A DNA stretch of 64,000 nucleotides from Paramacrobiotus metropolitanus. Lineage: Eukaryota > Tardigrada > Eutardigrada > Parachela > Macrobiotidae. Position 1 is the stretch's first letter; every line of letters begins with the position of its first letter. Under the pieces are notes generated by a model that had not been told where the DNA came from, did not search any database, and saw nothing but the letters and a program-made list of their open reading frames with translations. The stretch spans positions 1,227,524-1,291,523 of the forward strand of contig NW_026570251.1 of assembly GCF_019649055.1 (NCBI RefSeq). Direction: 5' to 3'. The translations under genes and the position numbers were made by a program. Of this stretch, positions 3,793 through 64,000 are shown one piece after another.

Positions 3793-3860
3793 TACTTTAG
3801 TGCTTAAGATTGTATACTCGATAAACAGTTGTCCCAGTACTTTTATTTACAGTATGCATT

Positions 3861-4232: not shown

Positions 4233-4239
4233 CTTCTCC
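4233..4239 (-). promoter_or_regulatory. candidate polypurine tract
   Basis: Read on the minus strand, GGAGAAG lies directly before the 3' LTR, where the primer for plus-strand DNA synthesis is expected. It is short, so the call rests mainly on position. Confidence 0.5.
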
Positions 4240-5700: not shown

Positions 5701-5710
5701 AAGGCTAATG

Positions 5711-7825: not shown

Positions 7826-7879
7826 TCATCGCTCGTAAACTTTCGCGATTTCCTGGTTTAGCCGGAGCATAGACGGGGT

Positions 7880-8250
7880 TGTGAACGGTCAGTCCTTTCT
7901 CTGTGGTTCCTCGTCCAAATTCACCGTTACGGTTGATTCCGCGTCGGAATCAGAATATGCTTCCAGAGGAGGTGGACTGTCAGAGTCCTTCCTCGCATTA
8001 GAAGCGTTTTCCGTCATCGGGAACAAATACGCGCAATGAGGACATATGTCGCTAACAGCGCATTGACCTCATGGTATCTGTGACCATAAATACATTCCTC
8101 ATCGGAGGAATACTTTCGGCCAAAATGACTTCTGCAGTACAAACACACACCTTGTGTCGATAAGCTGAAGAAAGGCACCGAGTGCACAAGAATACGGGAA
8201 TACCTTTGCGGTAAAGAACGCGGCCGTCCGTCATTTTATTACAGGAGCCG
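7880..8250 (-). other. broken coding-like stretch, Cys/His-rich
   Basis: Minus-strand frames here switch several times but look protein-like. One stretch carries CLYC, then C-x4-H-x2-H, and then CPHC in the next frame, which together resemble a zinc-binding module. It is followed by an acidic, Ser/Asp/Pro-rich segment starting MTENASN (from about 8018). Close to 7880 a segment HNPVYAPAK resembles QDPVYANAR in the env tail at about 5890. This may be a decayed piece of a duplicated env tail or the end of the upstream ORF. No function assigned. Confidence 0.35.
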
Positions 8251-8398
8251 TTATTTTTCGGGTATTACAGAGGCGATGGTTAAAACGTCAGTTGTGCGAG
8301 AAAACACTACTGTTCCATTCTCTCGATTCTTATTGTGCAGTTCAGAATCTGCACTTATCCCTAGCCCCCGTAAGGCGTTATTAGTGAAACAATCGCAA

Positions 8399-9611: not shown

Positions 9612-9787
9612 GGATCAACGCCCTACAACAAAAGAGAGAGAAAATTAATTTAAAGAAATTAAACGGATAAAAGTTATCATAAGAAATGAACTGTTGTTTT
9701 TTTAAGATTTTTTTTTGGTAATAAAAATATACTTATTTTATATGATTTTAACCGATAATACATGAAACATTAAAATACTAATAATAT

Positions 9788-11455: not shown

Positions 11456-11800
11456 TACGGTGAACGGTTTCGGACCTCCGAGGTAAAATGGAATTTGTCA
11501 GTAACCGACCAGAAAATAGCGAGGAGCTCCTGCTCGGACGTATGATAGTTCTTCTCTGCATCGGTTAACGAACGACTTGCGTAGGCAACAACTTTGAAAC
11601 CATCAGCTTCGCGCTGTGTCAGAACGGCGCCCAGTCCATCGAGACTGGCATCCGTTTCAGGACGTGCTCCTTTTCATTGTCAAAGTGGGTGAGGATTGGT
11701 TTTGTAATTAATGAGTTTTTATATCGTCAAAAGCGAGCTGCGACGCAGCAGACCAATGAAACGTTGTGTTTTTTTCTTGTTAACTCGAGAAGCGGGGCGG
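11456..11800 (-). pseudogene. pol: RNase H part of Pol, frame-broken
   Basis: Between RT and integrase the minus strand encodes RNase H motifs in shifted frames: [27 protein letters not shown] and SEQELLAI. The TDH triplet begins the integrase-containing frame. The order and motifs are standard for Ty3/gypsy Pol (degradation of the RNA strand of the hybrid). At least two frame changes occur within about 330 bp, so no continuous product can be read. They may be indel errors in the sequence or true mutations. Confidence 0.8.
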
Positions 11801-13417
11801 CAATGCGCGAAAAATTTTGATGAATCGCCGATAATGGCTGGCAGCGCCCAAGAATCCCTTAACGTCCCGGATACATGCAGGTACCGGACGAGCTAGGATA
11901 GCCTGAACGTTTTCCGGATCTGGGGCAATGCCCTGGGAATTTACCATATGACCTAAGAACTTTAGTTCCTTCTTCCCAAAGAAGCATTTGCCTGGTTTGA
12001 TTTTCAGTCCGGCTTCTCGAAGCCGTTGCAAAACGATTTGAAGGTTTACTAAAAGATTTTGCCACGAGTCCGCATAAATTTCAACATCATCAAGATACAG
12101 TATTAAAATCTTTCCTTTGAGATCGCCCAGGACGCGATCCATCATGCGACTGAAAGTCGCAGGAGCCGTACGCAATCCAAAGGGCATTACTTCAAATTGG
12201 AAAACGCCGTCCGGCGTTCGGAAACAAGTAAGACTCTTGGATGAGTCATCCATCCTGATTTGCCAGTAGCCACTAGCCAAATCAAGGCTAGTAAAGTAAC
12301 ACGAATTTTTAAGACTGTCCAAACAGTCGTCGATTCTGGGTAATGGGTAGGGATCAAAAATAGTGTCCTCATTCAAAAGCTTGTATGAAACACAAAATCT
12401 TAAAGACTCATCTCTTTTTCGTGCCAGTACTACATTGGCACATCGTTCTGAAATTTCGCATGGGCTGATCACGCCCTTTCGCAACATATCTTGGATCTGT
12501 CGAGTGATCTCGACTTTTTGCCATTTCGCGAAACGCCGAAGCGGTTCCACGACTGGATTCGCTTCCGGTTTCAGAAAAATTCTGTGTGTCAACACGTTAC
12601 AGGTACCGAGGCCCTGATCGTCGGTCGGAAAGACCTCAGTAAAATCCATGAGCAAACGTACTAGTTCGTTCCGTTGTTCGACCGAAAGGTCACCATAATT
12701 TAATTTTTGAAAATTAATGTCTGAAACTTTTGCCGCAATTGTGGTAGGACCAAAAAGGTCATCAATGTCATCTGTGATTTCCGAATTATTCTTCATAAAA
12801 CGCTTGAGGTTTTCCGGCAGTAACTCTTCCAACGCGACTGCACTATTCTGAATCTCTTGGTCCGGAACCTCGAGGGTTCGCGTTTCTGTAACAGCTCTAT
12901 TGGCATCCCTGATCCCGAAATTCTCTGTAACGGGTTCCTGATGCTTAGGGATTGTTTTCTCTTCGACCTCAAGGTTAATTAGTTCCTGATTCCCTGCTAC
13001 CTCAGTGGCAGGTTCCTGGGTCTCCGGACTCGAAACCTCCGGGACCTCTAACTTGGATTCTGTCTGTATGCCCGTGACCTCGGTGACGGGTTCTTGGGTC
13101 TCCGGGATCGGAATCCCCGGGACCTCGACCGGACCTTTCAAACTTCTTTCGTTCTCGTTGCGCTTTAGCAACCCAAAATTAAAAAACTTTTCACGATCGG
13201 CTAATGCCCTTATCATAATATCTTGTCTCACTTCCTTCCCACCTTGGGAGGAACCTGCTTCCAACAACTGTAACCCCTCGGGGACTGCGGGATCTGTACC
13301 ATCAATTGCCCTCACCGTTTCCGGGGACTGTTCCGCCAGCAGAACAGCGTCGGAAACTAGGTTCTTGGATGCGGCCAAGCCTGGGCTCGCCTTCTTTCTG
13401 AGCTCGCCCGGTAACAC
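11780..13417 (-). CDS. pol: reverse transcriptase part of Pol
   Basis: 545 codons. The C-terminal 300 residues form the RT palm and fingers: LDLASGYWQI, FQFEVMPFGL, the catalytic YLDD, and KFLGHMVNSQGI of the thumb region. The N-terminal ~200 residues are a spacer between protease and RT. It contains an imperfect ~30-residue repeat (PETQEPVTEV, PETQEPATEV, PKHQEPVTEN), unlike usual gypsy elements. The frame ends shortly after LGAASHYRRF, just before RNase H, at a frame break. RT copies the element RNA into DNA in cytoplasmic particles. Catalytic residues are present. Confidence 0.92.
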   Translation of the reverse strand: MLPGELRKKASPGLAASKNLVSDAVLLAEQSPETVRAIDGTDPAVPEGLQLLEAGSSQGGKEVRQDIMIRALADREKFFNFGLLKRNENERSLKGPVEVPGIPIPETQEPVTEVTGIQTESKLEVPEVSSPETQEPATEVAGNQELINLEVEEKTIPKHQEPVTENFGIRDANRAVTETRTLEVPDQEIQNSAVALEELLPENLKRFMKNNSEITDDIDDLFGPTTIAAKVSDINFQKLNYGDLSVEQRNELVRLLMDFTEVFPTDDQGLGTCNVLTHRIFLKPEANPVVEPLRRFAKWQKVEITRQIQDMLRKGVISPCEISERCANVVLARKRDESLRFCVSYKLLNEDTIFDPYPLPRIDDCLDSLKNSCYFTSLDLASGYWQIRMDDSSKSLTCFRTPDGVFQFEVMPFGLRTAPATFSRMMDRVLGDLKGKILILYLDDVEIYADSWQNLLVNLQIVLQRLREAGLKIKPGKCFFGKKELKFLGHMVNSQGIAPDPENVQAILARPVPACIRDVKGFLGAASHYRRFIKIFRALPPRFSS

Positions 13418-13449
13418 GGGTTTCTCAGACGGGTTCTCCAGTATTATGT

Positions 13450-14054
13450 CTACGGCAACTCGTTTGCCTGTCTTCGGGCCATCTCGTGGGTCGGATGGAC
13501 CGTGTAGAAGGTAAATGGGATTATTAAAACCGGTTTCCCATTCCCTTCATCCTGACCATTATCCGGGTTTGCAAGGCCCGGAAAACAGTAATAAAGCAAG
13601 GGCAAGACTACAGAATCATTACGCAGTGTTTTAGAATGAAAATCAATTTGGATCCGTGTTTGATTAAGGTAATCAATTCCGATTAATACCTCAAATGGAG
13701 CTTGGGTTATAACAAATAATTCACATGGCTGTACCTGGCCCAAAACTTCAAGATAGACATCAACCTTTTATTTAATTTACGTTGTGATGTTATTGTGGAA
13801 ACATATGGACCATCGGTATCAATTATTTCCAAACGATTGAGTTTCGCAAAACTTTCTGTAATCAATGAAATCCCTGAGCCGGTATCGAGTATCGCCCGGC
13901 ACGATATATTATTCACACGAGCCCGACAGATAATTGGACCTACTTCACTAATTTTATAAGGATTTATGATGAAATGGTCTGTGCGTGCGTCGGTACCACA
14001 CACAGACCTATTCAGTTTAAAGAAGCGGGTGCGTCCATCGGGAGCTGTTCCCAT
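13450..14054 (-). pseudogene. pol: protease part of Pol, frame-broken
   Basis: The frame 13707-14054 overlaps the end of gag by 43 nt in a different frame and contains the aspartic protease active site LDTGSGISLI. A second frame, 13450-13743, holds the C-terminal protease strand VLIGIDYLN. The two halves of one protease are therefore in different frames, and the RT frame (13417) is shifted again. The gag/protease overlap fits programmed frameshifting; the second and third shifts do not and look like lesions or sequencing indels. Confidence 0.85.
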
Positions 14055-15160
14055 GGATCTGCCGGTAGGTTACTGTGATAGAAAACTCGTGTCGGATTTG
14101 CAGCTGTACCGGCTGCAGGAAAAACTGGAGGAACTGGCGGTCGATTGACCTGCGGACCACTCGTAAGCATGGGGACGGGCTGCGCTGGACCCATAACGGG
14201 ATAATTATTCCCTGGAGGCGGCGGTCCGTAAGAACCGCGAGCTACGGCGTTAGCGTAAGTGCCTCGCCCTCGACCGCGACTGGTCGATCCCCTATAATTT
14301 CGACTTTGTGGATTCTGCCAGCAAACACCCTTGAGGTGGCCAGCCTTCCCACAATAATGACATTTACGAGACTCGCGTTGTCGAGTATCACGACGTTGAC
14401 CACCTGCTTCGAGTTGGCTGAGCCTGGCGCGAATGGCTTCCATCTCAGCTGGATCCGGTACCGCAACGTCGACACGTACGGCTTTAGCTTGGGTATCGGC
14501 TGGGGGCGGAAAGTTTCCATAGGACTGCGTTGTCCGTTTAACTGTTTCAGTTTCAACCCGGGGTGGTCGTCGTGAAGGACCGGCACCGGCTTCAGGAAAA
14601 GCGATACGTTGACGGTATTTGTAAGCGCGAGAAATGTTTTTCAACCTCTCGAGGAAGTCTGTTGTGTCTTCGATCTCATCGTAGACCGACACGATCTCGG
14701 CTTTTAAGCCATCAGGTAAGCCTTGGAATAAATGTAAGATTAAGTCATCCGGTGAGGCGTTTGGATTACGCGTTGTCACGATGCGCGTGATCCGTGTCAC
14801 ATATGCCAAAGGGTCATCAGTTGAAAGCATTTTCAAACTGGTTCCCTCCAGATCAAAATCTATGGGATTTTTCCCGAAGGTCTCTTTGAGAGCCTTCTTC
14901 AAGTCGTCCCAGCTGTTGTCATCGGGACGATTGACGAACCAGTGAAGGGCGTCGCCCCTGAGACAGGCTCTCAGGCAGCTAAGTAACTGTCCTGACTTCC
15001 AGCCATAAAGAGTCCCTTGAGACTCGTATTCGAGAATGAAATTATCTACGTCTTCAAGAAAAGTACCAGTAAACTTGGGCAGATCCCTGATATTGGGAGC
15101 ACGGAGCTGAAAACCTTTTCCTGCAACCGGGTTAGCGTCATCCTCGTCGCCTGGTGCCAT
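14012..15160 (-). CDS. gag: Gag (capsid and CCHC nucleocapsid)
   Basis: The first ATG in frame is at 15160 (MAPGDEDD). The frame stays open upstream to about 15535 without another ATG. The capsid part (retrotransposon gag family) runs from about LPKFTGTFLEDVDNF through DDNSWDDLKKALKETFG. One zinc knuckle, CHYCGKAGHLKGVC (CX2CX4HX4C), follows near the C-terminus, with an Arg/Gly patch (RGSTSRGRGRGTYA) after it. Gag packs the element RNA into particles. The 3' end overlaps the protease frame. A plausible 3' splice site TTTTCAG lies near 15541, followed immediately by an in-frame TAA, so the upstream extension is probably untranslated. Confidence 0.9.
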   Translation of the reverse strand: MAPGDEDDANPVAGKGFQLRAPNIRDLPKFTGTFLEDVDNFILEYESQGTLYGWKSGQLLSCLRACLRGDALHWFVNRPDDNSWDDLKKALKETFGKNPIDFDLEGTSLKMLSTDDPLAYVTRITRIVTTRNPNASPDDLILHLFQGLPDGLKAEIVSVYDEIEDTTDFLERLKNISRAYKYRQRIAFPEAGAGPSRRPPRVETETVKRTTQSYGNFPPPADTQAKAVRVDVAVPDPAEMEAIRARLSQLEAGGQRRDTRQRESRKCHYCGKAGHLKGVCWQNPQSRNYRGSTSRGRGRGTYANAVARGSYGPPPPGNNYPVMGPAQPVPMLTSGPQVNRPPVPPVFPAAGTAANPTRVFYHSNLPADPWEQLPMDAPASLN

Positions 15161-15684
15161 GATATAGTCGGGCTTAGTAATGGCCCGTCGAGGCTTACGA
15201 TTCTGCTTACGTACAAGAGAAAGCCGACCTTTCACTTCTGTCCAGCTCAGGTTCTGGGTCACTGCGGAGCGAAGGAGGTACCCCGTGGGAGACGGCGATA
15301 GTGACTCAATGGTCTGACTAAAGGGCAAGACCGGATTGAAGCTTACTTCATGTGGCTCGTAGAATGCCGTGTTATGTAAGTCTGGCTGATCAATGTTGGG
15401 AGGGTCGGAGTCCGATAATGACTCAACGACGTTCCCAGGAAGGTTTGGTTCAGGCTTCTTACTACGGTGCTCTCGCCAGAATTTATCGACCGTGGAATCG
15501 GAGCTATACTCCGGATCCAGGTTGAATGAATCTGATTACTGAAAAGTTATCACGCGGCAAGGACGAACTATTATGAGAAAAGTAGCAAAACAGGAAGTAG
15601 GATTGGTGCCATGATTGTCCAACAGGAACTTATCGGACAGATCACCGAAAGAAGAAATAACAAAAACAGGGCACAGCTGACTTA

Positions 15685-15927
15685 TCAGCTTTTGTCATCC
15701 GGTTTCGCACAACAACAGCCAACAATCTTGGTAAGAATCTTTACCAGAAAAACATAACGGGATGATTCATCCCGAGGTAACGATTCTCTTATTTTAATAT
15801 AGAACGGGTCACGTTTTGGAAAAATAAAGTTCATCTGATAACATACATGTTGAATGCTATGTGCAGCATAATATTTATGCTGTTTAAATGGATACGTACA
15901 AAAATAAAACGTAGCTCTATAGAGCAT
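15685..15927 (-). CDS. leader small ORF 4 (weak family member)
   Basis: 80 codons. The C-terminal part (ESLPRDESSRYVF followed by a CCC cluster) resembles the end of leader ORF 3 (LVAPRQNLSDLYVF then CPCC). The N-terminal part is not clearly alignable. It may be a decayed fourth copy. Function unknown. Confidence 0.35.
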   Translation of the reverse strand: MLYRATFYFCTYPFKQHKYYAAHSIQHVCYQMNFIFPKRDPFYIKIRESLPRDESSRYVFLVKILTKIVGCCCAKPDDKS

Positions 15928-16040
15928 AACCGGAAAATATGAATATTATTTGCAAGAAGAAGACAAAAATAATAAAATGAAATCCAGAAAACTGTAAATA
16001 AATTTCGAATGATGAAACCACATCAAAAGAAAAGAGAATC

Positions 16041-16343
16041 TTACAATCGATGCGGCTTTTGTCGATGCGCATTAACCAACAACGTGTTACAGCAGGGACA
16101 CACGGTTTCTGTTATATACTGGAAAACATAAAGGTCACTCAGGTTTTGTCGAGGCGCAACTAAATGTGCTCTCCTGGACTCAAGAACAATACAATGGACA
16201 AACAAAACTTTTGCATCATTGCTGAAAATGGTAGTACAAAAATCTGCGAATTCATCAACATCATCACTTTCTTTTGTCTGCCAAACGCTGTGAATTATTC
16301 GGCCCGTATGATCACGTGAAACAGTTTTATATGTGAATTGCAT
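16041..16343 (-). CDS. leader small ORF 3
   Basis: About 100 codons from the ATG at 16343 (MQFTYKTVSRDHTG); the frame is open further upstream to 16406. The pattern M-aromatic-x-V-x-R, then DEFADFC..IFSND.KVLFV, then a C-terminal CPCC is shared with the neighbouring small ORFs. No known domain recognised. It lies in the leader of the provirus, antisense to nothing known. Confidence 0.5.
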   Translation of the reverse strand: MQFTYKTVSRDHTGRIIHSVWQTKESDDVDEFADFCTTIFSNDAKVLFVHCIVLESRRAHLVAPRQNLSDLYVFQYITETVCPCCNTLLVNAHRQKPHRL

Positions 16344-16412
16344 TTCACAACAGATTATTGAAAAGAAAGAGATAGAGGAATATGTCGATTTATTCCAATG
16401 CAACAATGAAAT

Positions 16413-16683
16413 TCATACATAAGAATGTTTACAACAAGGGCACGTTGCCTCAGCAATATATTTTGTATATACGGATCCGTACTTTTCTCACGTACATTAA
16501 TACCGCTTCCGATGGGGTTGAATGTCACGTAATCAATTAATAATGCCTCAGGATTATTTTCAAAAAAGGTATCACAAAAGGAATCGAAAGCTTCTTCGTC
16601 AGCGTGATTTGCATTCCGAAAAAACGCCAGTAGATTACGCCATCAGATGTACGGCGACAAAGAACTTTATAGTCGAATAACAT
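16413..16683 (-). pseudogene. leader small ORF 2, frameshifted
   Basis: Begins at an ATG at 16683 (MLFDYKVLCRR). Family motifs (FDSFC..FFENNPEALLIDYV, and a terminal CPCC) are present, but in three successive frames, so at least two indels interrupt it. It lies between small ORFs 1 and 3, which it resembles, and is best read as a damaged member of the same tandem family. Confidence 0.5.
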
Positions 16684-16814
16684 TTCTTAAAATATCTGGA
16701 AAGAAAGTAAAGAAATGCCCGACAATGATTTTCATGAAAAGAGAATGTACGCAATAAAGACGATTAGAAAATGCAAATATTGAAATATTAAAATACGGAG
16801 ATTAGTGATTTATT

Positions 16815-17096
16815 CTATTCAGGAATTTGCAGCACATTGCGCATACCACCAAGCGATACCAAACGATCAACAATATCCTGAACAAGAGAATCCGTAATAG
16901 GCATTTTAAATAAAATCCCTGTATCTTCAGTATCCAGGTTTTTCCACTCGACATACAATACAGTCGAATTTTGAATAAACAGATTATTGCAAAATGCCGC
17001 TAGTTCATTATTATTTTGGAACGAATAAGTCTGCGACAATTGATGTATATACACCTGATTATTAATTCGCTGCACAAGAGATAATTCATATACCAT
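16815..17096 (-). CDS. leader small ORF 1
   Basis: 93 codons, intact, with an ATG at 17096. Shares with ORFs 2 and 3 the order M-x-aromatic...V.R, then ELAAFCNNLFIQNSTVLYVEW, then a Gly-Ile/Leu stretch; it lacks the terminal CPCC. It is the first open frame after the 5' LTR and so is well placed to be translated from the genomic RNA. No known domain recognised. Acidic and small; regulatory or accessory function is only a guess. Confidence 0.5.
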   Translation of the reverse strand: MVYELSLVQRINNQVYIHQLSQTYSFQNNNELAAFCNNLFIQNSTVLYVEWKNLDTEDTGILFKMPITDSLVQDIVDRLVSLGGMRNVLQIPE

Positions 17097-17498
17097 ATTT
17101 AAATTTTATCACGAACGATGCATAATTAATAAGCGGGATAAATTATAACAAACATTCCGACAATAGTCAAAAGTACACAACAGTATTACAGCATATACAT
17201 TACGGCAGAATATCTGACATCACTTGATGCATTGACTCTAACGTTCCAATCGGAACGTATAAGAGTATGGTATATTCAAATATACCACTGGCAAATTAGC
17301 GTTGGTGAAAATTAATTTATTTTAAAAATTAATAACTGGTGCAACTTACAATACGGTGTTGCGCTTGATCCATCGTAGAACTGTGAACGCGGGAAAACGG
17401 CTTCCGTAGACGAAACGTAAGGCGGCCGGGTGGTCAGTTAACGGAATAACGATGCCGTAAATACCGATCGCACGCGACTGTAGTAACCGACAGGTGGC

Positions 17499-17516
17499 TT
17501 CTCAGTCGTCGGACCA
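17499..17516 (-). promoter_or_regulatory. candidate primer-binding site
   Basis: Reading inward from the 5' LTR on the minus strand, AAT is followed by TGGTCCGACGACTGAGAA. TGG is the complement of the tRNA CCA end, so this is the expected primer-binding site. I could not assign the tRNA. Confidence 0.6.
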
Positions 17517-17519
17517 ATT

Positions 17520-17891
17520 TGTTACATAATTTATGGCAGAGCGAAATAAACGGAAAAGGTCACGGCGGTGTAAGACCGGCCGGTTTCGTAGTCTAATATG
17601 TGGTGTTTACGGAAATATGCATAAACGGCAACGAACGAGACGGCAATTGCGAGTCAGGAATTGTTATTGAAGGAAATTAGGCTGCACGGCTGTGACTGTC
17701 CCAGAAAAGCGCAAAAACATCGGTATAAAAGAGCACCAAGTGGAACGGTATATCAGATAACGGCATGTACGGGCATATCGCCCTTAACAATCAGAAAGCG
17801 TATTTCATGAGAATCGGCACATACTAAGTGATTCAGGCATTGGGCAAGGGAAAAGTAGCGAGCCGAGCATCAGGACAAAGTACATGTAACA
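17520..17891 (-). repeat. 5' LTR of the 14-kb provirus
   Basis: 372 bp, identical by eye to 3861-4232 (see that entry). TATAAAAG on the plus strand is antisense to the coding genes. Flanked outside by CATT, matching 3857-3860. Confidence 0.93.
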
Positions 17892-51890: not shown

Positions 51891-52541
51891 AGTGAAACCC
51901 CTCCTAACGTACACCCTTTTATAACGTTCACCCCTTTATTATTTGCATACGGCTGGGAACCGGACTGTCCGGCATATTATAACATAGGAGCAGTTCTCTG
52001 TATAACGTTCACCCCTCTACAACAAGTACAACGTACACCTATCATGGAACGGCAGACCATATTTAACGTATATTCAACCCCTGCGTTACGTACACCCGGC
52101 TAAGAACGAGTAGCAACAATTTCAAAGAAAGCTCCGGCTTCAAGTTTTAAGTCTGCCCAATTCCGGATCTTGCGATGCAGAACAGCCGAACGATATTAAA
52201 ACAACATTTACATGCGTAGTTGGGAACGTACCCTGTCAGTAACGTTACTGTGGCGGTTTTAAAAAATGGACGCGAAGTGTAAGCGTCAGAGCTTTTCTTT
52301 GGAGAAAAAGCTGGAAATCATTATCGCCGTTAAGTCAGAGGAACTCAGTGTGAGCGCAGGCGTACATGCGTACACCCTCGCTTTGGCAGTCTGTTGTGTT
52401 TTGCTGCACGCCCGCCTTACGCGTGGCGGAAGCACGCTGTTCTGCACGCACCCGCACTGTGTGGCGGCTACGTGCGCATTTTCCACGCTTGCTGCAGTCA
52501 GCAATGCGGAGTTGTCGATGAGGAAATTCTATCGAATTTAG
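51891..52541 (+). pseudogene. pogo/Tigger-type transposon, 5' part
   Basis: Begins CAGTGAAACCCCTCCTAACG, the form of terminal repeat seen in pogo/Tigger elements, followed by repeated CGTACACC/ACGTTCACCCC motifs. At 52266 an ATG opens MDAKCKRQSFSLEKKLEIII followed by AVKSEE, the start of the CENP-B/pogo N-terminal helix-turn-helix. The similarity stops near residue 33 and the frame runs into unrelated Cys/His-rich sequence ending at 52541. No DDE core is seen before the second LTR element begins, so only the 5' end remains. Confidence 0.65.
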
Positions 52542-52559
52542 TCTTGTCATAAATTCCTA

Positions 52560-53250
52560 GCAGTCACGCCATTTCTCGCTTTCTGTAGCGTAGGCGCTTT
52601 CATAGCACTGCCAGGCTTTTTGGTAGGCAGAATCACGTCAATTCTGTTCCTACGCGTGAACCTTCACCAGGTCCACGCTCATATGGTAGCAAGAGTCGTG
52701 TTTCTCCAGAATAATCTCTGAAGTTTTTCCCGTCCATTTGACGAGGTGTGGAAGAAGTCTCCCGCGAGAAAGGGCTCGCGTACTGATCGGTGGCGAAGGA
52801 GCGTTTGGATCTCAGCAGATCAGCATCAGTGTGTCTCTACTGAGTAGAGCACGCTGTACTGACCTGACGCGATCAAGGCTACTGAAGTAGCTTTGATTGG
52901 AGGGGCACAAGCGCCGAGAAAGATCGCCGCAAGAGGCAGAAGCCCGAAGGGGGGCACGAGTGGGCAAGCCACTTTGGCTGTCGGGTGTGGAGTTTCAGGT
53001 GCGTCTCTACTGAGTAGAGCGCACACATTATACGCGCTCTCCCAAAGGGTGATCGAGCGCCCCTGTCGTTGCCAACGTTAAGGCGCGACAGAAGACCCGC
53101 AACCAGCAAGCTATTTGGTCGACGCACCGTTGCGTCCCGTTGAGGCGAAACGGAAGGGGTTATCGGCTGGCCCAGGAGAAGTCAGCTTAATCGCTGGAGG
53201 ATTGGAGGAATCGCGGAAGGACGCGCAGGATCGATTTCTGGATCACGGAG
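52560..53250 (+). other. upstream part of LTR element 2, boundaries unknown
   Basis: Not coding. From about 52800 it contains hairpins: CTCTAC-TGA-GTAGAG at 52835-52849 and 53005-53019, GCTAC-TGAA-GTAGC at 52878-52891, and GGC-ACAAGC-GCC at 52904-52915. The last uses the same loop found at 62.1 kb inside the element, so this part probably already belongs to it (LTR or leader). The matching 3' LTR would lie beyond the window, so the LTR ends cannot be set. Confidence 0.5.
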
Positions 53251-53589: not shown

Positions 53590-54050
53590 GAAGTTGACCT
53601 TTACCAAAAATTTCGACGAGAATGATGACCTTTATTAAAAGTTGAAAGCTGAATAAATAACGTTTATTCTGAGGAAATCTAAGTTGATTTCTCAATAAAA
53701 TCGAAAAATATTCTCAGGTTAGACGTTCTAGAACGAAGTTGATAGTGACCTTTAAAACAGAAAAGTTCTGAAGGAAAAAGTGACCTATAACGCGACGGAG
53801 TAAGCTATTAAGCTGAAACAGTGGAAATTAATCTCATTTTACTAAAGGAAGTGACCTTTAGAAGGGACTTAGCATTTTTGAGGCAGAGTGACCTTTAGTA
53901 AAATTGAGCTGATACAAAAGAAGGTGACCTTTAGGACAGCACTTGTTTCTGTTTACGTGTAAAGGGGCTTACGTAGCTAAAACTAACACACGTGTCAGAA
54001 ACATTATTAGCATCGTCCAAGTTATCCGATCATCAACGGAAGCCAAAGAT
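53590..54050 (+). promoter_or_regulatory. untranslated leader dense in TGACCTTT
   Basis: Six exact TGACCTTT octamers (53595, 53626, 53746, 53852, 53889, 53925), all in the same orientation, plus a TGACCTAT at 53781, lie in 340 bp of non-coding leader before the first gag ATG at 54051. No primer-binding site could be assigned. Confidence 0.6.
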
Positions 54051-57000
54051 ATGGACCAAGACACAGACGGTAATGAACCGGTCTCATCGAGCAGTCAGAG
54101 AGAACGGTCTCAGGGTTAGAAAACCCTTACGAACGGAAACTAAAGCCGTACACACGGCCCGTGGAACATGAAAGAGCAACTCGAGCTCAAAAGACCTTTG
54201 GGAGGAAGGACACCAGAGGCTCAGAGGCCACATATCAAACGGCCCTGAGGGAAACTCAGAACGAAAGCTCGAGTGACGGAAATGGAAAAGCTCCGAACGA
54301 CATGTCGGAGATAACACGGTAGACCAAGCAAAGGTCACCGAAGAGAGAACGGCTTCAGATGGACAGAACAAAGATGACAAGAAGGCCGAGACCGGAGGAA
54401 TGGCACGGTCGGCCGAAAAGGTCAAGGAGGAAAACGCGGATCAAGTTGAGAAGGGAAGTGACGAAGTCAGTCAAAAGGTCACCGAAGGTAGTGGCGCCGT
54501 CAGCAGCAACGAGCTGATCGACGAGGGAAAGGTCAAACAGAATGACCTTTCGGAAAACTCACTGTCCTTACAAGAACAGCTGGAAGAGAACGGTACCAGC
54601 CCCACGTCAAGTGACAAGTTTTACACTGACGATGAAGACGAAACGACGGTACAGACGTCTTTCCATACGGCAATGAAGGAGGCAAACTTAACGAAAGGGA
54701 TGTTTGATACGACCCTCCAGGACAAGCCAGAAGAGACCTTTGAAGGAACGGCGTCAGGAAGAGCCGACGACCGGGACCAAAGGTCACCATCACCAAAAAC
54801 ATCCGTAATGAATGGCTTAAAGCAGCGTGTCAAGGAACTCGAGCAGCTACTTGACGAGAAGGAGAGCCAGGCATTCGCTGCCATTCGAGAACAACGGAAT
54901 AAAACTATCGAAGTCGAAGCAAGGCTGTATGTGATGGAGCAAGAAAAGGTCACGCTCGAAGACGAAGCGCAACAATGGAAAGTTAGATTTGAAGTTCAGA
55001 AACAAGCGGCGGAAGATCTAAGGAAAATGGTCGAAGATCGAGACGCGGAAGGCATACTCACCGCAGAAGAAGACGGTCTGTCCGAGGAAGCAGCTGAAAG
55101 GTCACAGGAAATAGCAGAATTGAAAAATGAGCGTGACCTTTTACAGTCAAAGGTCAAGGAGGCCGAGAAAAAACGTGACGAATCTCTAGCAAATGCGACG
55201 AAGTTCACCGGAAAGGTCACCAGCTTGACGGCTGACATCTCGAAACTGAAGGATGACCTTAAATTACGCGAAGACCTTGTCAACACGTTACAAACAGAAT
55301 TAAAAGAGATGAAAAGGAAACACAACGAAGCGGAAAGCCAGAGAGATCAAGCAGCAAAGGAACTGCTTGAACTGGCTGAAATAACAAAAACTGAATTCAA
55401 GCGACTCAATGACGAAATCGACAACCAAAAGAAAGAAGCAAAGAAGTGGTTGAAGGAAGCACAACGGTGTGACGAACGGGTCACTGTGCTAGAAGTCGTG
55501 AATAAAGAAGGAAAGACAGAAAATGAAAAACAAAAGAAGAGATCGCCAAATTGAGCGATGAATCAGTCGGATTGGCTACTTCCGTAATGGAAAAGGATGA
55601 TAAAATTACGGAACTAAAAGTCCAACTGAAAGCAGTTGAGGAAGAGTGCCAAGCGAGAGGAAGGACCCTCGCAGACAGAGCGGATCGTATTACACGATTG
55701 GAAGCAGAAGCTGAGATCCTAAAAGCAGCGAAAATGGATCTCGATAAGACCCTTGATAACAGGGCCAGTACAATCCTCGAGCAAATGAGAAAGGTCACCG
55801 AAGCAAACAACGATTACGAGAAACTGCGGAAGGACGCAAATGAAACCGTGAGACAGCTACAAGAAACAATTAAACAAAGAGACGAAGAAATCAAGACTCT
55901 CAAACGCTCGGCAAAACAGAAGGAAACTGAGATCCAACAGCCGGAACGAATCGAATCTCCGCCCCCTGGATACGGTGAAGTCCACACCGTCGAAGGTAGC
56001 TTTCATTTCCAAGCTCCCTTAAAGACGGGGACTGGCCGAGGCGACGGCCATGATAAAGATAAGGTCAAAGCTGAAAAGGTCACCGACGATACTGAGTTGG
56101 CGAAGGGGCACTCAGGACCGACCGGTGGGGTCAATCCTCGGCAACAAGAAACAGGACCGAGGGAAACAATCGTCTACAAATCTGACCATCAACCAGATAA
56201 TCATGAAGATCCACGAGTTCGCCAAAACGAGCAGGAAAGGGTAGCTCGTGAAGAGGAGAGGCGAGAAAGAGAATACCGCGCGGAATACCATGCTGAGGCA
56301 CAGCGACTCCGTCGCGAAGAACGGGAATTCAGAGGTTACATGAGAGCCATGGCCCGGAAATCCGCGTTGATCGACTACAACGGCAACCGAGAAGCTTTAC
56401 TTGGTTGGATCCGTCAGGTCAAGGAGACTCAGAAGACGTATGACCTTTCGGATGCAGCAATGATGCTGAAGTCGCCAACGCAGTCAAAGGGGACGCGAAG
56501 GCATGGTTTGACGCGGAAAGAGAAATCGATGACGAAGAAGAGGCGGAAGAGTTAACCGTCGATGAATGGATGACAAAGTTCAAAGAACATTTTGGCGATC
56601 GTGACGAAGGGTCAACGCCTTAAGAGAAGCGATGACGAGAAAGTTCGAGGCTGGCAAAGAAACGCTTGACCAGTTCTATCAGGCGATCATGCGCTTCAAG
56701 TCGAAACGGATCATAACTGAGAAGCAGGCTATCGGATTCCTGATTCAAGGATGTAAGAATGACAGTGACCTTTATAAGGCACTCCGAGCACAGAAATTCC
56801 ATAACCCAATGGATATCAAGGAATTCTTCCGCACCTGGTCGACTGGCGAAGAAAAGTATAAGGTCACGAGAGGCAATCGAGTCCAAGATGATTGCGTGAT
56901 CATCCGATCGGGCCAGATCGAAGAAGTCGCGAATGGGCGACAGAACCAGTCGTGCTCGGCGCAGGCGTCAGGATACAATACGGAATTCCCGCCGTTAGGC

Positions 57001-58137
57001 ACTCAAGAGATGACCTTTGGTAACGGTCGAAATGAAGGTCAGGTATCGTACGCGACGATCGCGGCGATCCAAACGGCCGTCCAAGAAGTAACCAAGCCTG
57101 CGATCGCGGCGATCCAAGCATCAGCTCAGCAAGCAGCAAGGCCGAAACAGAATCCACAAGGAAACGTGCAGAGAAATGCCCTGAATGGAGGGCTCGGTGG
57201 TCAAGGAATGGCTCAGGCGAATCCGGGCTTTGCTGGCCAGGGATTCAACGGTGGCGGAGGAAATCAGGGAAATTTCCGACCGAACCGTGGACAAGGAAAT
57301 CAAGGACCACGATACGGGTCGCGAGTAGAGCGCCTGTTCACCATGATCGACGGATGGGTGGTCAATAACGCGCTGACATGCCAGAACTGCATGTACGGCA
57401 ACCACTACACACAAGCGTGTTCGTTCGCGGGAACACCGTGGAATCAGAACCCCAACCGGGTCGTGTATGAAGAATGGTTGATGCTGCGTAACAATCATGG
57501 CGGATGGCGCAACGCAATAGCAAACGGATACGTGCCACAATCACGCCAAGGCGGTCGGTATGCTGGTCAAGGTGGCCAAGGGAACTTCGCCGGTCAAGGT
57601 GGCCAGGCCAACTACAACAATCAAGGAGGCCAGGGCAATTTTGGCGGCCAAGGGAATTTCGCTGGTCAAGGTGGCCAGTGGAACAACGGAGGTCAAGGCG
57701 GCCAGGATAACTTCGGAGGCCAAGGCAACTTCGCCGGTCAAGGTGGCCAAGGCGGAGGAAACGGCGGATATGGCCCGGTTAGAGGCGGCTTCCGAGGTAG
57801 AGGCAGAGGCCGCGGCGGCAATCGCGGAAATTACGGCGGTGGCCAATGGAATGGTGGTGGTCAAGGTGGCCAATGGAACGGTGCTGGTCAAGGAGGCCAG
57901 TGGAATAATGGTGGTCAAGGTGGCCAGAATTTTGCCGGTCAAGGTGGCCAGGGCAATTTCGCCGGTCAAGGTGGCCAGGGCGACTTCGGCGGGCAGCAAG
58001 GCGGCTTCGTCGGTGGGAACCAGAACGGTTTCGGTCAGCAAGGCGGAGGTTTTAACTTCGCCCCGGCGAATGGTGCCGGTCAGGCGCAAGGTGCGCCGGT
58101 TCAGGGAATGGCCCAGGGAAACGTTCAAGGTCAGTAG
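54051..58137 (+). CDS. gag: Gag of element 2 (coiled coil, capsid, CCHC, Gly-rich tail)
   Basis: From ATG 54051 (MDQDTDGNEPVSS) the product is readable to the stop at 58137, but in several frames. Breaks lie near 54115, 54310, 55545, 56480 and 56620; the longest open pieces are 54400-55554, 55551-56555 and 56632-58137. The first ~600 residues are charged, heptad-rich coiled coil. A retrotransposon-type capsid follows (GWIRQVKETQKTYDLS, then FEAGKETLDQFYQAI and ITEKQAIGFLIQGC). One zinc knuckle CQNCMYGNHYTQAC (CX2CX4HX4C) lies at residues ~250-263 of the last piece. The final ~190 residues are a GQGGQ/NFAGQGG low-complexity, prion-like tail with a GRGRGRGG patch. Such length and tail are unusual for Gag. 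Confidence 0.82.
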
Positions 58138-58140
58138 GCG

Positions 58141-61100
58141 CCGGTGAGCCTACTGATCGTCCGGAACCGAAACCACCGGATATAGAGGAGCAAGGTGCTC
58201 CGCTGCAGGCAAGGACCGCAGCGAGAAAGGGATGCTGCGAAAGTAACGCAAAGACCCGGAAAAGAAATCCGAGGATTCGAGAAAGTAACTCGAAATCGAG
58301 CGAAGGGGCTCGTAAAGGTCAAGAGAAGGGTTTAAAAAGATTGCCGCAAGGACGGAAGAATTTGACCGAAAGGTCACCGCAGAAAGTAACTGCGGGAAGT
58401 CAAGAAAATAACTTGACTCAGCCGGGGCCGACCGAAAGGTCACCGCAGAAAGTAACTGCGGGGAACAGGGTTGACGGAAGGGCCTCAACTCTGCATCCGG
58501 GACAGCAGAAAGTAACTGCAAATCAAGAAAGTCACGAAAGTAACGTGACGCTGCAAGGACAGCAGACCCAAAGGTCACCGCAGAAAGTAACTGCGAGCAA
58601 AGGTCACGAAAGTAACGTGACGCTGCAAGGACAGCAGACCCAAAGGTCACCGCGGAAAGCAACCGCGAGGAAGAGTGAAGCTACTCTGCGAAAGACGCAA
58701 GCGGAAATCTCAAGCGAAGAGGATGATGAAACACATCACGCGAGATTCCGAAAGTTCGTCGAAAATACGTTTGAAGTTGACGGAATGACCGTAACCGTGC
58801 AACGAACGCACGAAGGCGGTCCAGATAGACCGAAATTCCTTGAGCAGATGGCAAAAGTATTTCAAGCAAGAGCTGCCGAGGAAGATCACAGAAGGGCCGT
58901 GACTGCGCAAGGAGCGCAAGAGACCGAAAGGTCACCTCAAGCGAGAGTTGAAGAAGTGAAAGGTCACGAGAGATTGCCAGTGCAGCAGACTCAAGAGTCA
59001 CTGAAAGAGAAAGGTCACGGTGAAGTCGCCGATGAACCGAAAGGTCAAGAAAGTAACTTGACTCTGCGAATGGCGCAGCAAACAGTGAAACAGAGCGAAG
59101 GGGCACAGCAAGTCTCAGATGACTCTCTCGATGAGGCAAACACTCTACAACAGAAGAATGAGTGGCAAAAAGTCGCTTACAGGCCGAATGGACGGCACGG
59201 TATGTGGAAACCAGTTCCTCCGCCACAAAGGTCACCGCAAGATGTGAGAATCTCCAGAGAAGCTTACTGGGAAGAAAGAGAGAAACAAGACTGGCGGATG
59301 AGAAAGCATCTCGAGGAAACGGTTAAAGCTTCACAACCGAAAGTACAAGAGTACTGGGAAGAGAAAGTCCAATGCGACGAAAATAACCGTCAGTTTCGAG
59401 AGCGGATTGAGAAGGGTGAACTACCGCCTCAGTATGGCGAGAAAGTACCTTTACAAAGGTCACTAAATGGTGGATTTTTCATGTCAAGACCAGAAAGGTC
59501 ACCGGACTTAGCGCAAACTCCGCAAAAGGAGAAGTCATATGACATGACAGAAGCAATCCGGAATGACAACGAAAGGTCACCGCCAAGAACTGACGGATTA
59601 TCATCTCAAATCGATCCAACTCGCACGAATAACGAAATTGCGAAGAAAATTACTGATTGGATGAAAGAAAACGACCATAAGATGGTTGTGTACGAAAGGT
59701 CACCAGAGAAAAAGAATGAGGATGACGAGATGACCTTTGCGGATGAAATTACGCAAGAGATAATGGCAAAGTTGCAAGAAAAACCGTCCAAAGATGTGCG
59801 CAATGAAAGGTCACAATACGAAGTTATTGCGCAAGTGATAAAAGGTCACGAGAACGCACAAGAGAAGGGTTTAACGTGCGAAGTGGCAAAGGTCACGGGT
59901 AAAGAAAACGCTGCGAAGGAGCAAGCGAATATCTTACCGAAGTCAAAAAGGATCGAAAAGTTCTCAGATGTGCGACCCGACGTACCGAAACGGATAGACC
60001 GTTGGAGCTCAAAAGGTCTGATAGAGAGCAAGCATGCTGCACCAATCCCAGTCAAGTGTCGAATAAGAGTCTTGAAACTCGAAGATGGAAACTTACCGAA
60101 ACGGATCGAAGCTTATACACATGAAGTCAAAATTGGAAATAAAAAGGTCATGGCAATGCTTGACACTGGCGCAGAGACGTCTTTGATTTGTCAACAGTTC
60201 TGTGAAAGGAATGGCCTCCAGACTATAAGACTACCACCGAAAAAGAAGGTGATGATCAAAGGGATCAGCGGGACGTCAGGCTTCGAAGTAACGCACTACT
60301 GCGTAGCACCAGTGACCTTAAGAAGGAAAACGAGTCAACACTCGTTCTACGTCAGACCAGCGTCAGACGACGTCCAAGTCCTACTGGGATTCGACTTCCT
60401 CGCAAAGAAATTCGTCCTGATAGACGGACACGACGAGGAAGAAAGGGAAACTGAAGCTGAAGACGATGAGCCGAAATCATCCGCAAAAGTTAATGCAGGA
60501 AAGGTCACCGAACTTCAACTAAGAAGTAATTCGGGGCAAACGGCTATCCCAGTACCAGAGGCACAGGGATCGAAGGAAAATAAGCAAAATGAGAATGGTG
60601 AAAATCTAATCCCAGTACCAGAGGCACAGGGATTAGAAAAGGCTGAAAGAAGCAAAAGGTCACCGAAGTCTAAAGGAAATCAAAGGTCACCAACGATGAA
60701 ACAAATCAAGATAATGCAAGCAGAAGCACTGATTGCAAAGAAACAGTCGCTAGTGCCAGGAATGGAGTGGTCAAGGCTACTCCCAGTACCAGAGGCACTG
60801 GGCACGAGAATGGTTGGGCCCAGGACAGAGCCAGGACTGATGATCGAAAGCGACGAAAGAGCACTATTCTCGGAAATACGAGATCAAGCCATAAAGCAAC
60901 TGGATGCAAGGAAAACGGAGCATGGTGCTCAACACACTTTCGAACCACGTGATAAAGCAAGAGGGCGGATGAAAGGTCGAGACACGCGCCTGCGCAAAGA
61001 GGTAGCAGAGAGTAGTCGTCGTCTTACTTCCGAACCACGCTCTGCAGATGAAGAAATCGAAGTCATCGAAATATCATCAGATAACAGCGTAATCGAAATC

Positions 61101-62045
61101 GAAAAAGATGACGAATGGACAGATACCGATTCCGGAGAAACGGATAAGCGAGTTATCGTCCGTCCCGAACCGAGACAACGGATGCCGGAAGGGAACAATC
61201 GCGTCATTTCCCGCAAACCAAGAGAATGGACGGCGGAAGAGAGAGCAACCTCTTGCCATCACGATTGGCACGACAGCGACGACCTTTCGATAGCGCGACC
61301 TCAAGAAAGATGTGCAAAATGCATGCAAGAAATGACACAAGATGACCTTTCGGAATGGCCGAAATGCAATGCAGCAATTGCGCGTCATAAAAGACAAGAA
61401 GAAATAGAGGTCAAGTCGATTATGAGAACACTTCCCATGCCGGAACTGTCAAAAGCAACTTACCTTTGGCAATGTTATCGAGAATGGTTATCGGTAGTCA
61501 AGAACTACATCATCTCCAGAGGGAAGTGGCTCCATCATTGGCAGCAAGAAGCGGACAACTTCATTCCCGAGAAAGCGGATAAAAGCGACCCGTGGTATAC
61601 AAACCCGATTACAAAGCTCGACAGAGAAAGGCGACGAGCAATGGAAGAGAACGAAATATGGGAGCAAGCGAGAGTTGACTTATTTTGGGAATTCAGAGTT
61701 AATTATCTATGGAAAGGTCAAGGACGAGCAATCATTTTCCCAATTGGACTCGGCACAGTAGTGTACGAATTATTTGACCTTTACCAGGCCTGCCTCAAAA
61801 AGGGAAGCTTACGAGAATGGAATAAACAATGGGGCAAAATCCTCGAAGAAGTACCGATATTCACAGGAGAAATTCCAGAATTAAAGGTCACGCGAAAAAG
61901 ACGCGAACTTGGATTATTTGGCTATCGAGAAAAAGAAGGTGACCTTTACCAGATCCAGATGGAGTGGAGTATCCCGAAAGAGGCGGAGATACTTGGTGCA
62001 TGTATGAGACGGTACCGAACAATGACTGGACTACAGAAGAACTGA
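58141..62045 (+). CDS. pol: Pol N-terminal part of element 2: repeat region and protease
   Basis: Open without interruption to 62045. The frame is -1 relative to the end of gag and open through the gag stop, so it fits -1 frameshifting; an internal ATG at 58341 is not needed. The first ~170 residues are repetitive (ERSPQKVTAG, GHESNVTLQGQQ) because the RNA carries octamers and hairpins. The aspartic protease has MLDTGAETSLI near 60155 and LLGFDFL near 60385. Then come repeats of IPVPEAQG (60546, 60610, 60781), an acidic stretch, a possible zinc module (CHHDWH...CAKC, about 61256-61325) and a Trp-rich domain (about 61440-62040, e.g. KWLHHWQQEADNF) that I do not recognise. Retroviral Pol normally goes straight from protease to RT. 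Confidence 0.8.
58236..59062 (+). repeat. array of hairpins with conserved AAAGTAA loop
   Basis: Eleven perfect stems of 4-7 bp enclose a 7-nt loop, AAAGTAA (once AAAATAA, once AAAGCAA). Stems: TGCG (58236), TTCGAG (58276), CCGCAG (58377, 58443), AGTCAAG (58398), GCAG (58505), GTCACG (58531, 58603), CGCAG (58579), CGCGG (58651) and GTCAAG (59044), each followed by its exact complement. A related TGCG-AAAGA-CGCA is at 58687. The loop is read as ESN or KVT depending on frame. A 49-bp direct repeat with 71-bp spacing (58533-58581, 58604-58652) explains two of them. Confidence 0.85.
60546..60802 (+). repeat. three hairpins with AGTACCAGAGGCAC-type loop
   Basis: Copies at 60546-60570 (stem ATCCC/GGGAT), 60606-60636 (stem CTAATCCC/GGGATTAG) and 60782-60802 (stem CCCAGT/ACTGGG) share the core CCAGTACCAGAGGCAC. 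A diverged relative is at 62312-62330. The paired ends change together. Confidence 0.65.
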
Positions 62046-62883
62046 TGGCAAATTGCGTCTTTATCGGCGATAAGAGACCGAAAGGTCATGGCACAAGCGC
62101 TGAAAAGAAAACGGCACAAGCGCCGAAGAAGAAAAGAACAAAGATAACGGCACAAGCGCCGAAGAAACCAAAGAAAAGAACAAGAGGTCAGCACAAGTGC
62201 TGCTCAAGAAAACGGCACAGGCGCCGAAGAAGAGGAACCAACGCACACGGCGTATGAGTTGGCTCAGATGATCAAGGGAACTGAACCAGGCGTTTCGGGA
62301 TAAGGAAAACGGAATCCCGGTAACAGAGGCAAAAAAGGCTCAAATGTCGCCGCAGAGAAAGCAGCGTCGTTAGTGGCTTCACTAAAGGTCACTCGGTAAC
62401 GGCGAGGAAGGGCCACCAACCGAGAAGAACGAAAGGTCACTAAACGCGATGCTGGAAGAGGAGCCAGAAAGGTCAGTTCCGAAAGTTGACGAAAGGTCAC
62501 CTGAAACTGGCGAGGAAGGACCGCCAGTTGGAAAAGCAAAAGGTCACAGAATACCGCTCAAGCAGATGATAGCTCGGAAGACGATGAAGGGATAGGTCAC
62601 GAGCAAGGATTCGTGCAACACGAACAAATCCGAGGATAGCAGCACGAAACGGACGAAAGTCCAAGAAACGGACAAACCTCTGCCCGAAAAACGAAAGTGA
62701 AAAAACTTAGCGCTTCCAAGGATGAAAGCGATGACCTTTCAACAGAAAGTGAAGACGAAGGCGTCGATGAGCGACCAATCGAGAAAGAAGCAAAGGTCAA
62801 GAGCTTGAAGCTAACCACAGCAGCGAATCCGACTCGGAATTCTCGAGCACGAGCGATAACTCGACCACTTCTGAAGATTCTGG
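62046..62883 (+). other. pol: Pol spacer of element 2, frame-broken
   Basis: Coding-like but in changing frames: Lys-rich AQAPKKK repeats (62097-62230), NERSLN...EEPERSVPKVDERSP (62430-62520), and SDDLSTESEDEG (62730-62765). It carries eight further AAAGGTCA/TGACCTTT octamers and the ACAAG hairpins. It links the protease ORF to the next Pol segment. No domain recognised. Confidence 0.5.
62112..62226 (+). repeat. hairpins with ACAAGC-type loop
   Basis: CGGC-ACAAGC-GCCG at 62112-62125 and 62148-62161, CAGC-ACAAGT-GCTG at 62189-62202, and CGGC-ACAGGC-GCCG at 62213-62226. The CGGC/GCCG to CAGC/GCTG change is compensatory. The same loop with stem GGC/GCC occurs at 52904-52915 upstream of gag. Confidence 0.65.
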
Positions 62884-63492
62884 GTGAGTGACCTTTCAGA
62901 TCAAGAAGATCTGCTGGACCTCGACGAAGACGATGAAAAGAACGAACAACAAGAGAAAGAGATCATTGTTCGAAGAATTAAAGTGCAGAAAGCAAGAATC
63001 CCAGAAGGAGCGATCAAGGTTTACAGCGACCAACGAGTTAAGCTGAGACCAAACCTTGGCACACGCGTAAAGGTCAAGATGGGCGTTCATGTGCCACGGA
63101 ATCAGCTGATGTATACAGCAATTCCTCAAAAGGATAATGAAGTCCAACCGAGAACGGGAGTCACGGACCATAACGGCACTCGATTCGAAATTATTATCGA
63201 AAACCGAAGCAAAAGCCGAAAGACCGTAAGGAAGGGCCAATTTCTCGGTTACGTAGAACATTACGAACACCTAGAGAATGTAAAGGTCAACTCGGCTACC
63301 GTCGTGAAAAACATACTTGAAGATCCTGAAGTGGACGCAAAGACGAAAGAAGAATTGAATGACATCATTGAAAGATTAAAGTTGGGACCAGACCTAACTG
63401 AAGAACAGAAAAATGACGTGCGAAATGCATTTTGGGAGTTTTGGAAAGTTCTCCCCACGTCAAAGAAACCGTACGGCGATGTCAAAGGGTAA
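62884..63492 (+). CDS. pol: Pol segment before RT (beta-rich linker)
   Basis: 202 open codons. The first third is acidic (DLDEDDEKNEQQEKE). Then comes a beta-strand-like region (VKLRPNLGTRVKVKM, FEIIIENRSKSRKTVRKGQF followed by LGYVE). The end, NDVRNAFWEFWKVLPTSKKP, is the lead-in to RT in Ty3/gypsy Pol. The KGQFLG pattern recalls linker or dUTPase-like folds between protease and RT in such elements; I would not call it a dUTPase. The start at 62884 is only where the frame opens. The next RT piece is in another frame. Confidence 0.65.
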   Translation: MSDLSDQEDLLDLDEDDEKNEQQEKEIIVRRIKVQKARIPEGAIKVYSDQRVKLRPNLGTRVKVKMGVHVPRNQLMYTAIPQKDNEVQPRTGVTDHNGTRFEIIIENRSKSRKTVRKGQFLGYVEHYEHLENVKVNSATVVKNILEDPEVDAKTKEELNDIIERLKLGPDLTEEQKNDVRNAFWEFWKVLPTSKKPYGDVKG

Positions 63493-63501
63493 CGCACACT
63501 A

Positions 63502-64000
63502 TTGACACAGCCGATGCCAAACTCGGTTAAATGCAATCCAGCAAGAACAAGTTGGAAAGGTCGTGAATTCATCACAAAGCACATCGAAGAGATGCTACAG
63601 CAAGATGTCATTGAACCATCCGATGCGGAATGGAGTTTTCGGTCGTACTCGCCGCAAAGAAGAATGGCGACGGAACTATGGGAACAAGATTCTGCGTCAA
63701 TTACATTTTGCTGAACAAGCTGACGAAAAGAACAACTATCCACTGCCGAACCCAGATGAACTGCTTGACGCGTGCGCGGGAAACAAGTACTACGGCAAGA
63801 TGGACTTACAAAGTGGCTTCTGGCAGATCCCAATGGATCCAGCCTCGAAAGATAAGACAACTTTCGTCACGCAGGACGGAATGTTCCGTTTCAAAAGAAT
63901 GCCTTTTGGAGTCTGCAATGGACCTGCGACCTTTCAACTCTGTATGGATAAAGTCTTGTCGAACGCAAAGAGAATGGATGCGTTTTCGGCTACATTGATG
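63502..64000 (+). CDS. pol: reverse transcriptase of element 2, cut by window end
   Basis: RT motifs in order: GREFITKHIEEMLQQDVIEP with SDAEW (63562-63630), VVLAAKKNGDG (63640s), FCVNYILLNKLT (63690s), then in another frame KYYGKMDLQSGFWQIPMD (63786-63840), FKRMPFGVCNGPATFQ (63890-63938) and, after one more shift, VFGYID at the last bases. So the window ends inside the YxDD active site. At least two frame breaks occur in 500 bp. RNase H, integrase and the 3' LTR would lie beyond 64000. Confidence 0.85.

Follow-up and report, generated by a model that had tools for sequence, protein, structure and literature searches.

The closest analogues of the word array described here appear to be the insulator in the leader of Drosophila gypsy and the anti-silencing motifs of the VANDAL/VANC transposons. 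The gypsy insulator has about a dozen sites, all of them in the leader, and VANDAL21 is a DNA transposon. In Arabidopsis, a short motif has been reported to be dense in one VANDAL21 transposon group (PMC5735166). The octamer AAAGGTCA is described as the NGFI-B response element (NBRE), the site that NR4A nuclear receptors bind as monomers (PMC4777543). Here we describe a long terminal repeat (LTR) retrotransposon of the tardigrade Paramacrobiotus metropolitanus in which this octamer is repeated dozens of times and conserved as an exact word on either strand. It lies in the window, by which we mean the whole stretch of DNA analysed, namely the final 64 kb of contig C31 in a genome of 169.8 Mb and 533 contigs. 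Judged by its sequence, it is a long Ty3/gypsy-type element truncated by the end of this contig.

Abundance and conservation of the octamer

Between positions 53595 and 63289, AAAGGTCA has 61 exact matches (44 on the + strand and 17 on the - strand), with 13 more in the remainder of the window; a preliminary description, made from the sequence alone, had given about 61 and about 11. The octamer has the top count among the 7,206 octamers of this interval, and the objection that other words might be equally frequent thus failed. Its expected count was 0.6, 1.8 and 6.5 under Markov models of orders 1, 2 and 3, and the maximum in 60 order-1 simulations was 4 copies. When the motif copies were masked together with 7 flanking bases, the top octamer was CCTTGACC (13 copies), a word of a repeat coding for GGQ. 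Single-base variants of AAAGGTCA occurred at most 4 times each in the window, and at most 3 and 2 times in two related copies, L032 and L033. The shuffled-codon control proposed earlier was also run: 45 of the 61 sites lie inside five open reading frames (ORFs; 35 +, 10 -), against a mean of 5.0 and a maximum of 13 in 1000 synonymous shuffles. Similarly, four ORF pieces of other copies held 45, 31, 14 and 10 octamers, where the shuffle means were 5.7, 3.1, 1.1 and 0.5 (300 shuffles each). Chance, composition and codon bias were ruled out as the source of the octamer by the Markov expectations and the synonymous shuffles.

The sites are found in the leader, in coding frames and in both orientations, as had been stated. 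Five frame/orientation classes are used within the ORFs, and only the - frame that would give an in-frame TGA is unused (0 of 45 sites); the four pieces from other copies leave it unused too. Mean spacing was 138-175 bp across five stretches, with a broad distribution (coefficient of variation 1.0-1.3) and no regular, nucleosome-like spacing seen in any of the five. Apart from the few bases that adjoin each of the 61 sites, the flanks have a composition close to background.

Most sites are shared with diverged copies. Relative to L031 (94% identity), 40 of 44 + sites and 17 of 17 - sites are kept, where background octamers are kept at 76%; relative to L032 (74% identity) the numbers are 36 of 44 and 13 of 17 (49 of 61 in all) against a background of 17%, and relative to L033 22 of 44 and 12 of 17 against 4%. 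The six leader sites are kept in 6, 5 and 5 cases, respectively. When only blastn alignments were counted, 55 of 60 (L031), 38 of 47 (L032) and 21 of 30 (L033) covered sites were kept, and 3, 8 and 1 sites were found only in the other copy, which indicates that sites are gained as well as lost. In 3.6-kb stretches of eight ordered pairs, some of them reciprocal, 114 of 142 site comparisons were kept (142 of about 153 sites were compared, about 11 gapped, poorly aligned or edge sites being excluded). Between copies at 62-83% identity, the identity was 0.92-0.96 at the eight bases of the octamer and 0.64-0.80 at the six bases on each side. Among octamers occurring at least 10 times and ranked by conservation alone in four pairs, AAAGGTCA came first (108 of 139).

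The octamer was further compared with synonymous positions, as the preliminary description had suggested, in the ORF at 58341-62042; L031, in which no open frame with a protease was found, was excluded. Where the encoded amino acids agree, 73 of 78 motif codons are identical to those of L032 against 501 of 736 other codons, and 45 of 53 against 229 of 454 in the comparison with L033, whereas towards the motif-free copy L034 the motif codons (11 of 28) are no more often identical than the others (205 of 443). Since motif codons are kept beyond other codons although the amino acids agree, the octamer is not selected through its peptide, and the earlier statement that protein-level selection is insufficient holds with both the shuffles and the codon identities. 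The exact octamer, on either strand, is under selection at the nucleotide level.

These facts bear on the explanation that the octamer has no function and was spread by local duplication or mutational bias. Some sites do lie within 29-, 39- and 72-nt repeats. However, the flanks are near background, the sites fall in five frame/orientation classes, and conservation between the diverged copies is confined to the eight bases and accompanied by synonymous constraint, so that selection has to take the place of a function-free origin, which we consider very improbable. Pure duplication as the main cause was ruled out by the flank composition and the eight-base conservation.

Distribution along the element and among its copies

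Octamer density per kb is 10.1 in the linker between gag and protease, 5.6 in the coiled-coil part of gag and 4.4 in the leader. The GGQ-rich stretch at 57401-58200 has none; within this octamer-free coding part, 27- and 72-nt tandem repeats at 57544-58025 encode the GGQ-rich sequence. The octamer had been said to stop at the reverse transcriptase (RT). This is incorrect: the window ends with contig C31, and 37 and 39 further octamers were counted 3' of the RT core in two other copies. Of 37 sites in L045, one falls within the 1,290 nt of the RT, RNase H and integrase (IN) cores and 36 in the other 6,060 nt. The octamer is thus rare or absent in the LTR and the catalytic cores and dense also in the 3' part.

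The leaders of four copies, two of them close relatives, carry 6, 8, 8 and 17 sites. All 39 are in the - orientation and 36 of them read TAAAGGTCA; in the L033 leader, 13 sites are spaced 29-31 bp apart with the exact word in every unit. Sites 3' of the last long ORF are in the - orientation in 4 of 4 cases in L045 and 7 of 12 in L046. Together with the mostly + orientation of the coding sites (35 of 45), this pattern would allow long-range pairing of leader UGACCUUU with body AAAGGUCA in RNA; pairing or packaging had been proposed before, and the octamer could also be an export signal. We regard an RNA signal of any of these kinds as quite unlikely, because + and - sites are conserved equally and single-base variants are nearly absent, including those compatible with G-U wobble. 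The excess of + sites in ORFs is partly expected, since in one - frame the octamer would introduce a stop codon. The uniform orientation in the leaders is ascribed to tandem duplication, as in the L033 array, given that conservation extends to sites in either orientation. The strand symmetry and the exactness indicate instead a protein that reads double-stranded DNA, and the octamer is probably read in this form.

To place the window copy within its family, 20 copies were chosen from 150 scored matches in this genome so as to span the range of identity, and an unrooted tree was built from a stretch of about 3.6 kb that begins upstream of the RT and reaches into it. Twelve of the 20 copies carry 13-22 sites per 3.6 kb and form a single clade (local support 0.995). 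Of the other eight, L063 has 10 sites, five copies have 2-5, and L034 and L058 have none. The suggestion that a loss of the motif from related copies would speak against its importance is therefore borne out only in part: most sites are retained, at homologous positions, by the copy that is 74% identical, but few or no sites are present in other members of the family. The few sites of the poor copies are often homologous to sites of L033 (11 of 15 in the five copies with 2-5 sites, 6 of 10 in L063), so both a loss in the poor group and a growth from few sites are possible.

The word-poor lineages may use another word, AGMTSA (AG[AC]T[GC]A), which was chosen after inspection of L034. It occurs 111 times in L034 against 33 expected, with clustering in the leader, 33 times against 11 in L058, and 45-58 times against 13-15 in L059-L062 and L067; in word-rich copies it is found at 0.8-1.9 times expectation. 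Its conservation is at most slightly above that of the flanks (72 of 225 kept in wider pairs, 90 of 136 in closer pairs), and a conservation-based word search of the word-poor copies returned nothing comparable to AAAGGTCA. In L046, octamers of a AAACCTAAGAAA-type word were observed 9-13 times in 9 kb.

Candidate readers of the octamer

The best explanation, in our view, would be that AAAGGTCA is the binding site of a sequence-specific DNA-binding protein and that one clade of the element has been selected to carry an array of it. The sites would be spread over the full length of the integrated provirus, except where the proteins do not tolerate them, and the bound array, with on average one site per 140-175 bp, would keep the provirus transcribable where the reader is present, as a distributed enhancer or through protection from silencing. 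The reading as a whole seems to us evenly balanced, overlapping as it does with two alternatives that differ mainly in the reader. A role of the array in transcription or against silencing, proposed by analogy with VANC and the gypsy leader, seems slightly more likely than not. A more specific and tentative form of the proposal is that the octamer is a clade-specific address written into coding sequence, with codons and linker peptides (ERS, KVT, KGH) bent to it, and that its reader coats the provirus and shields or activates it, while related lineages carry little or none of the address.

The most likely reader would be a host nuclear receptor of the NR4A/Hr38 type. CAAGGTCA is the word preferred by ERR and FTZ-F1 receptors, and C at the first position is nearly absent here (1 of 67 words NAAGGTCA in 53595-63289), which, on these receptor preferences, argues for NR4A rather than ERR or FTZ-F1. 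The identification with the NBRE made in the preliminary description agrees with the published element in all eight bases and in its boundaries (PMC4777543). Three exon-like pieces at C45:296812-298442 match an NR4A-type DNA-binding domain query at 83, 76 and 65% identity, the first two being the highest identities among 39 matches; these pieces suggest that this is likely an NR4A gene and the best candidate. NR4A as the reader is plausible, although we put it somewhat below even chances.

Several points weigh against this proposal. The 5' LTR of the window copy, where a promoter is expected, has no octamer. Almost no octamer variants are tolerated, whereas transcription-factor sites usually tolerate them. 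The NR4A assignment of the C45 pieces is by identities to an NR4A-type query only. What speaks most strongly against a simple host-receptor model is that this genome also contains L034 and L058, whose frames are open over 2,982 and 2,828 aa although they lack the word, so the word is not required by the family as such.

The density of the octamer in one clade, although all copies share the host, would also be explained by a protein of the element itself that binds the octamer, protects or activates its own copies and co-evolves with them by clade, as VANC21 behaves in Arabidopsis (PMC5735166). The enrichment of a different, degenerate word, AGMTSA, in word-poor copies fits this alternative, as does a fast-evolving accessory ORF (L045:4898-5950; P0002-P0004; elsewhere in the family its frames measure about 900-1,000 aa) with many matches at 32-39% identity and CPxC...CWxC in P0002 and P0003. 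In the P. metropolitanus annotation this ORF is called uncharacterized or caldesmon-like; it is found 3' of the RT match, at a distance of about 10 kb in C1:2488735 and of 5.4 kb in C7. However, it is equally diverged towards a word-rich relative (C1:846556, 34%) and word-free ones (C97:73661, 38%; C44:716340, 39%), and its divergence thus does not follow the presence of the word. Neither a domain nor a fold match was found for a 347-350-aa piece and two longer relatives: the best Foldseek match of the model had an E value of 0.9, and matches to PDB chains were insignificant (catechol dioxygenase, E 0.088; TRF1, E 0.79-0.83). Given the divergence without a link to the word and the weak model of the 347-aa piece (predicted local distance difference test score, pLDDT, 60; 3 sequences), the accessory ORF was rejected as the reader. 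AGMTSA is also conserved at most slightly above its flanks, and an unrelated element is enriched in the octamer. An element-encoded reader is therefore considered unlikely, though it is the foremost of the alternatives.

The unrelated element, a Gypsy copy on the - strand at 3800-17700 of the window, contains 8 copies of AAAGGTCA against 0.7 expected, the top octamer there by over-representation score; two of the 8 are in identical contexts, probably its LTRs. Two diverged relatives keep 2 of 2 and 4 of 5 of the sites that their alignments cover, against backgrounds of 31% and 54%. These observations hint, weakly, at a host reader. The element has gag, RT and IN, and after the integrase, where env usually lies, two ORFs (6093-7666) without a Pfam match, and arrays of 8-bp period (GTTCTGAC / AGAACGTC) lie nearby at 1599-2141 and 3380-3698. 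In the other 38 kb that precede the octamer-rich element in the window, 5 copies were counted against 1.1-1.6 expected. Genome-wide, AAAGGTCA occurs 42,562 times against 15,522 for the reversed word, AAAGGTCACC 6,965 times against 771, and close pairs 2,652 times against 56, whereas CAAGGTCA, the sole one-base variant counted at this scale, is not enriched (6,332 against 7,867).

The reader could also be another host DNA-binding protein, such as an insulator, zinc-finger or architectural protein, comparable to Su(Hw) in the gypsy leader. The L033 leader array and the exact, variant-intolerant match, unusual for a receptor, are in favour of such a protein, and candidates are many, with 63 zf-C4 pieces alone in the host. 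The coincidence of the octamer boundaries with the NBRE and the lack of genome-wide enrichment of CAAGGTCA are against it, and we hold it to be improbable, a little more so than an element-encoded reader.

Architecture of the element and comparison with described systems

The features of the window copy are listed in Table 1. The gag region was delimited from listed ORFs and sequence reading, and had no Pfam match above the cut-off at 54051-58200; its frame is broken by an in-frame TAG at 54117-54119 and further breaks later. The 5' LTR is 90.5% identical to a second copy located 3' of the integrase in L045 (7350-7684). An ORF of L045 homologous to the RT part of the window contains RVT_1, RT_RNaseH, Integrase_H2C2 and rve in this order, so that, with the protease (PR) from the window and the remainder from L045, the domain order is PR-RT-RNaseH-IN. 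The C7 copy extends from LTR to LTR over about 18.4 kb, encodes RT, RNase H and integrase, and has 5' and 3' LTRs that are 97.4% identical. In C73, LTR matches are 24.6 kb apart, which suggests an insertion or copies of greater length. Among the 150 scored copies, several have stop-free frames of about 3,000 aa, so the family has probably been active recently.

Table 1. Features of the octamer-rich element in the window
Feature	Positions	Strand	Remarks
5' LTR	52349..52683	+	335 bp, TG...CA ends read in window copy
Candidate primer-binding site	52684..52705	+	Adjoins LTR; by sequence reading
Octamers of the non-coding leader	53595..53932	-	Six, starting at 53595, 53626, 53746, 53852, 53889, 53925
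gag region	54051..58200	+	Coiled-coil-like part, middle part, GGQ-rich repeat; 16 octamers (11 +, 5 -)
gag-protease linker	58201..60080	+	19 octamers, densest part; partly in 39-nt and 72-nt repeats
Retroviral aspartyl protease	60081..60460	+	PF13975 E=1.8e-9, PF00077 E=1.1e-5; 1 octamer
Protease-RT linker	60461..62883	+	16 octamers
Start of RT part	62884..63600	+	3 octamers (62889, 63069, 63282), the last ones in the window
RT core to end of contig C31	63601..64000	+	0 octamers

A 25-nt repeat coding for IPVPEA(L/Q)G was observed at 60546, 60609 and 60780 of the window and at about 7090-7750 in L031-L034, with 3-5 copies per element in word-rich and word-poor groups alike. Its words rank among the best conserved after the octamer. 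In its idealised form it folds into a hairpin of -12.7 kcal/mol (ViennaRNA), and the stems are imperfect in the window copies; it is a possible RNA signal.

In literature searches of titles and abstract openings, no title dealt with this element or with retroelement genes studded with an octamer, and the claim of novelty depends on these searches. A term search of the main text of a paper on tardigrade transposons (PMC11071193) did not find Paramacrobiotus named. The element offers a clean and quantitative case of strong, protein-independent selection on DNA words within retroelement genes, with a natural control in those members of the family in this genome that are poor in the word, and a direct route to studying how retroelements of animals interact with DNA-binding proteins of the host or withstand silencing. 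Cellular stress is one of the stimuli that induce NR4A receptors (PMC7901948); if NR4A is the reader, the activity of the element would be tied to the state of the host in animals known for extreme stress tolerance.

Among described systems, DNA uptake sequences of the Neisseriaceae resemble the octamer in being short and very highly repeated, with "dialects" that differ by lineage, but belong to bacterial genomes and to natural transformation, an unrelated machinery (PMC3630211). The NBRE is treated in the text cited above as a single response element, whereas about 60 almost variant-free copies are present here in 10 kb, known from sequence. Like gypsy, with its 5' leader array for a host protein, the window element is of the Ty3/gypsy type and has a leader array; unlike the gypsy insulator, it has dozens more sites through gag, pol and the 3' part, and a different word. 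As in VANDAL21, a dense, exact motif marks one group (the other eight copies have 0-10 sites per 3.6 kb). The VANC21 motif likewise derives partly from tandem repeats, is replaced by a different motif or none in related groups, and loses binding in vitro sharply on single substitutions; it differs in being a 9-bp, mainly non-coding motif of one orientation (PMC5735166), whereas 45 of the 61 tardigrade sites are in ORFs and both orientations are used (44 + and 17 -). VANDAL21 is, moreover, a plant transposon, and the window element is an LTR retrotransposon of an animal with a putative reader.

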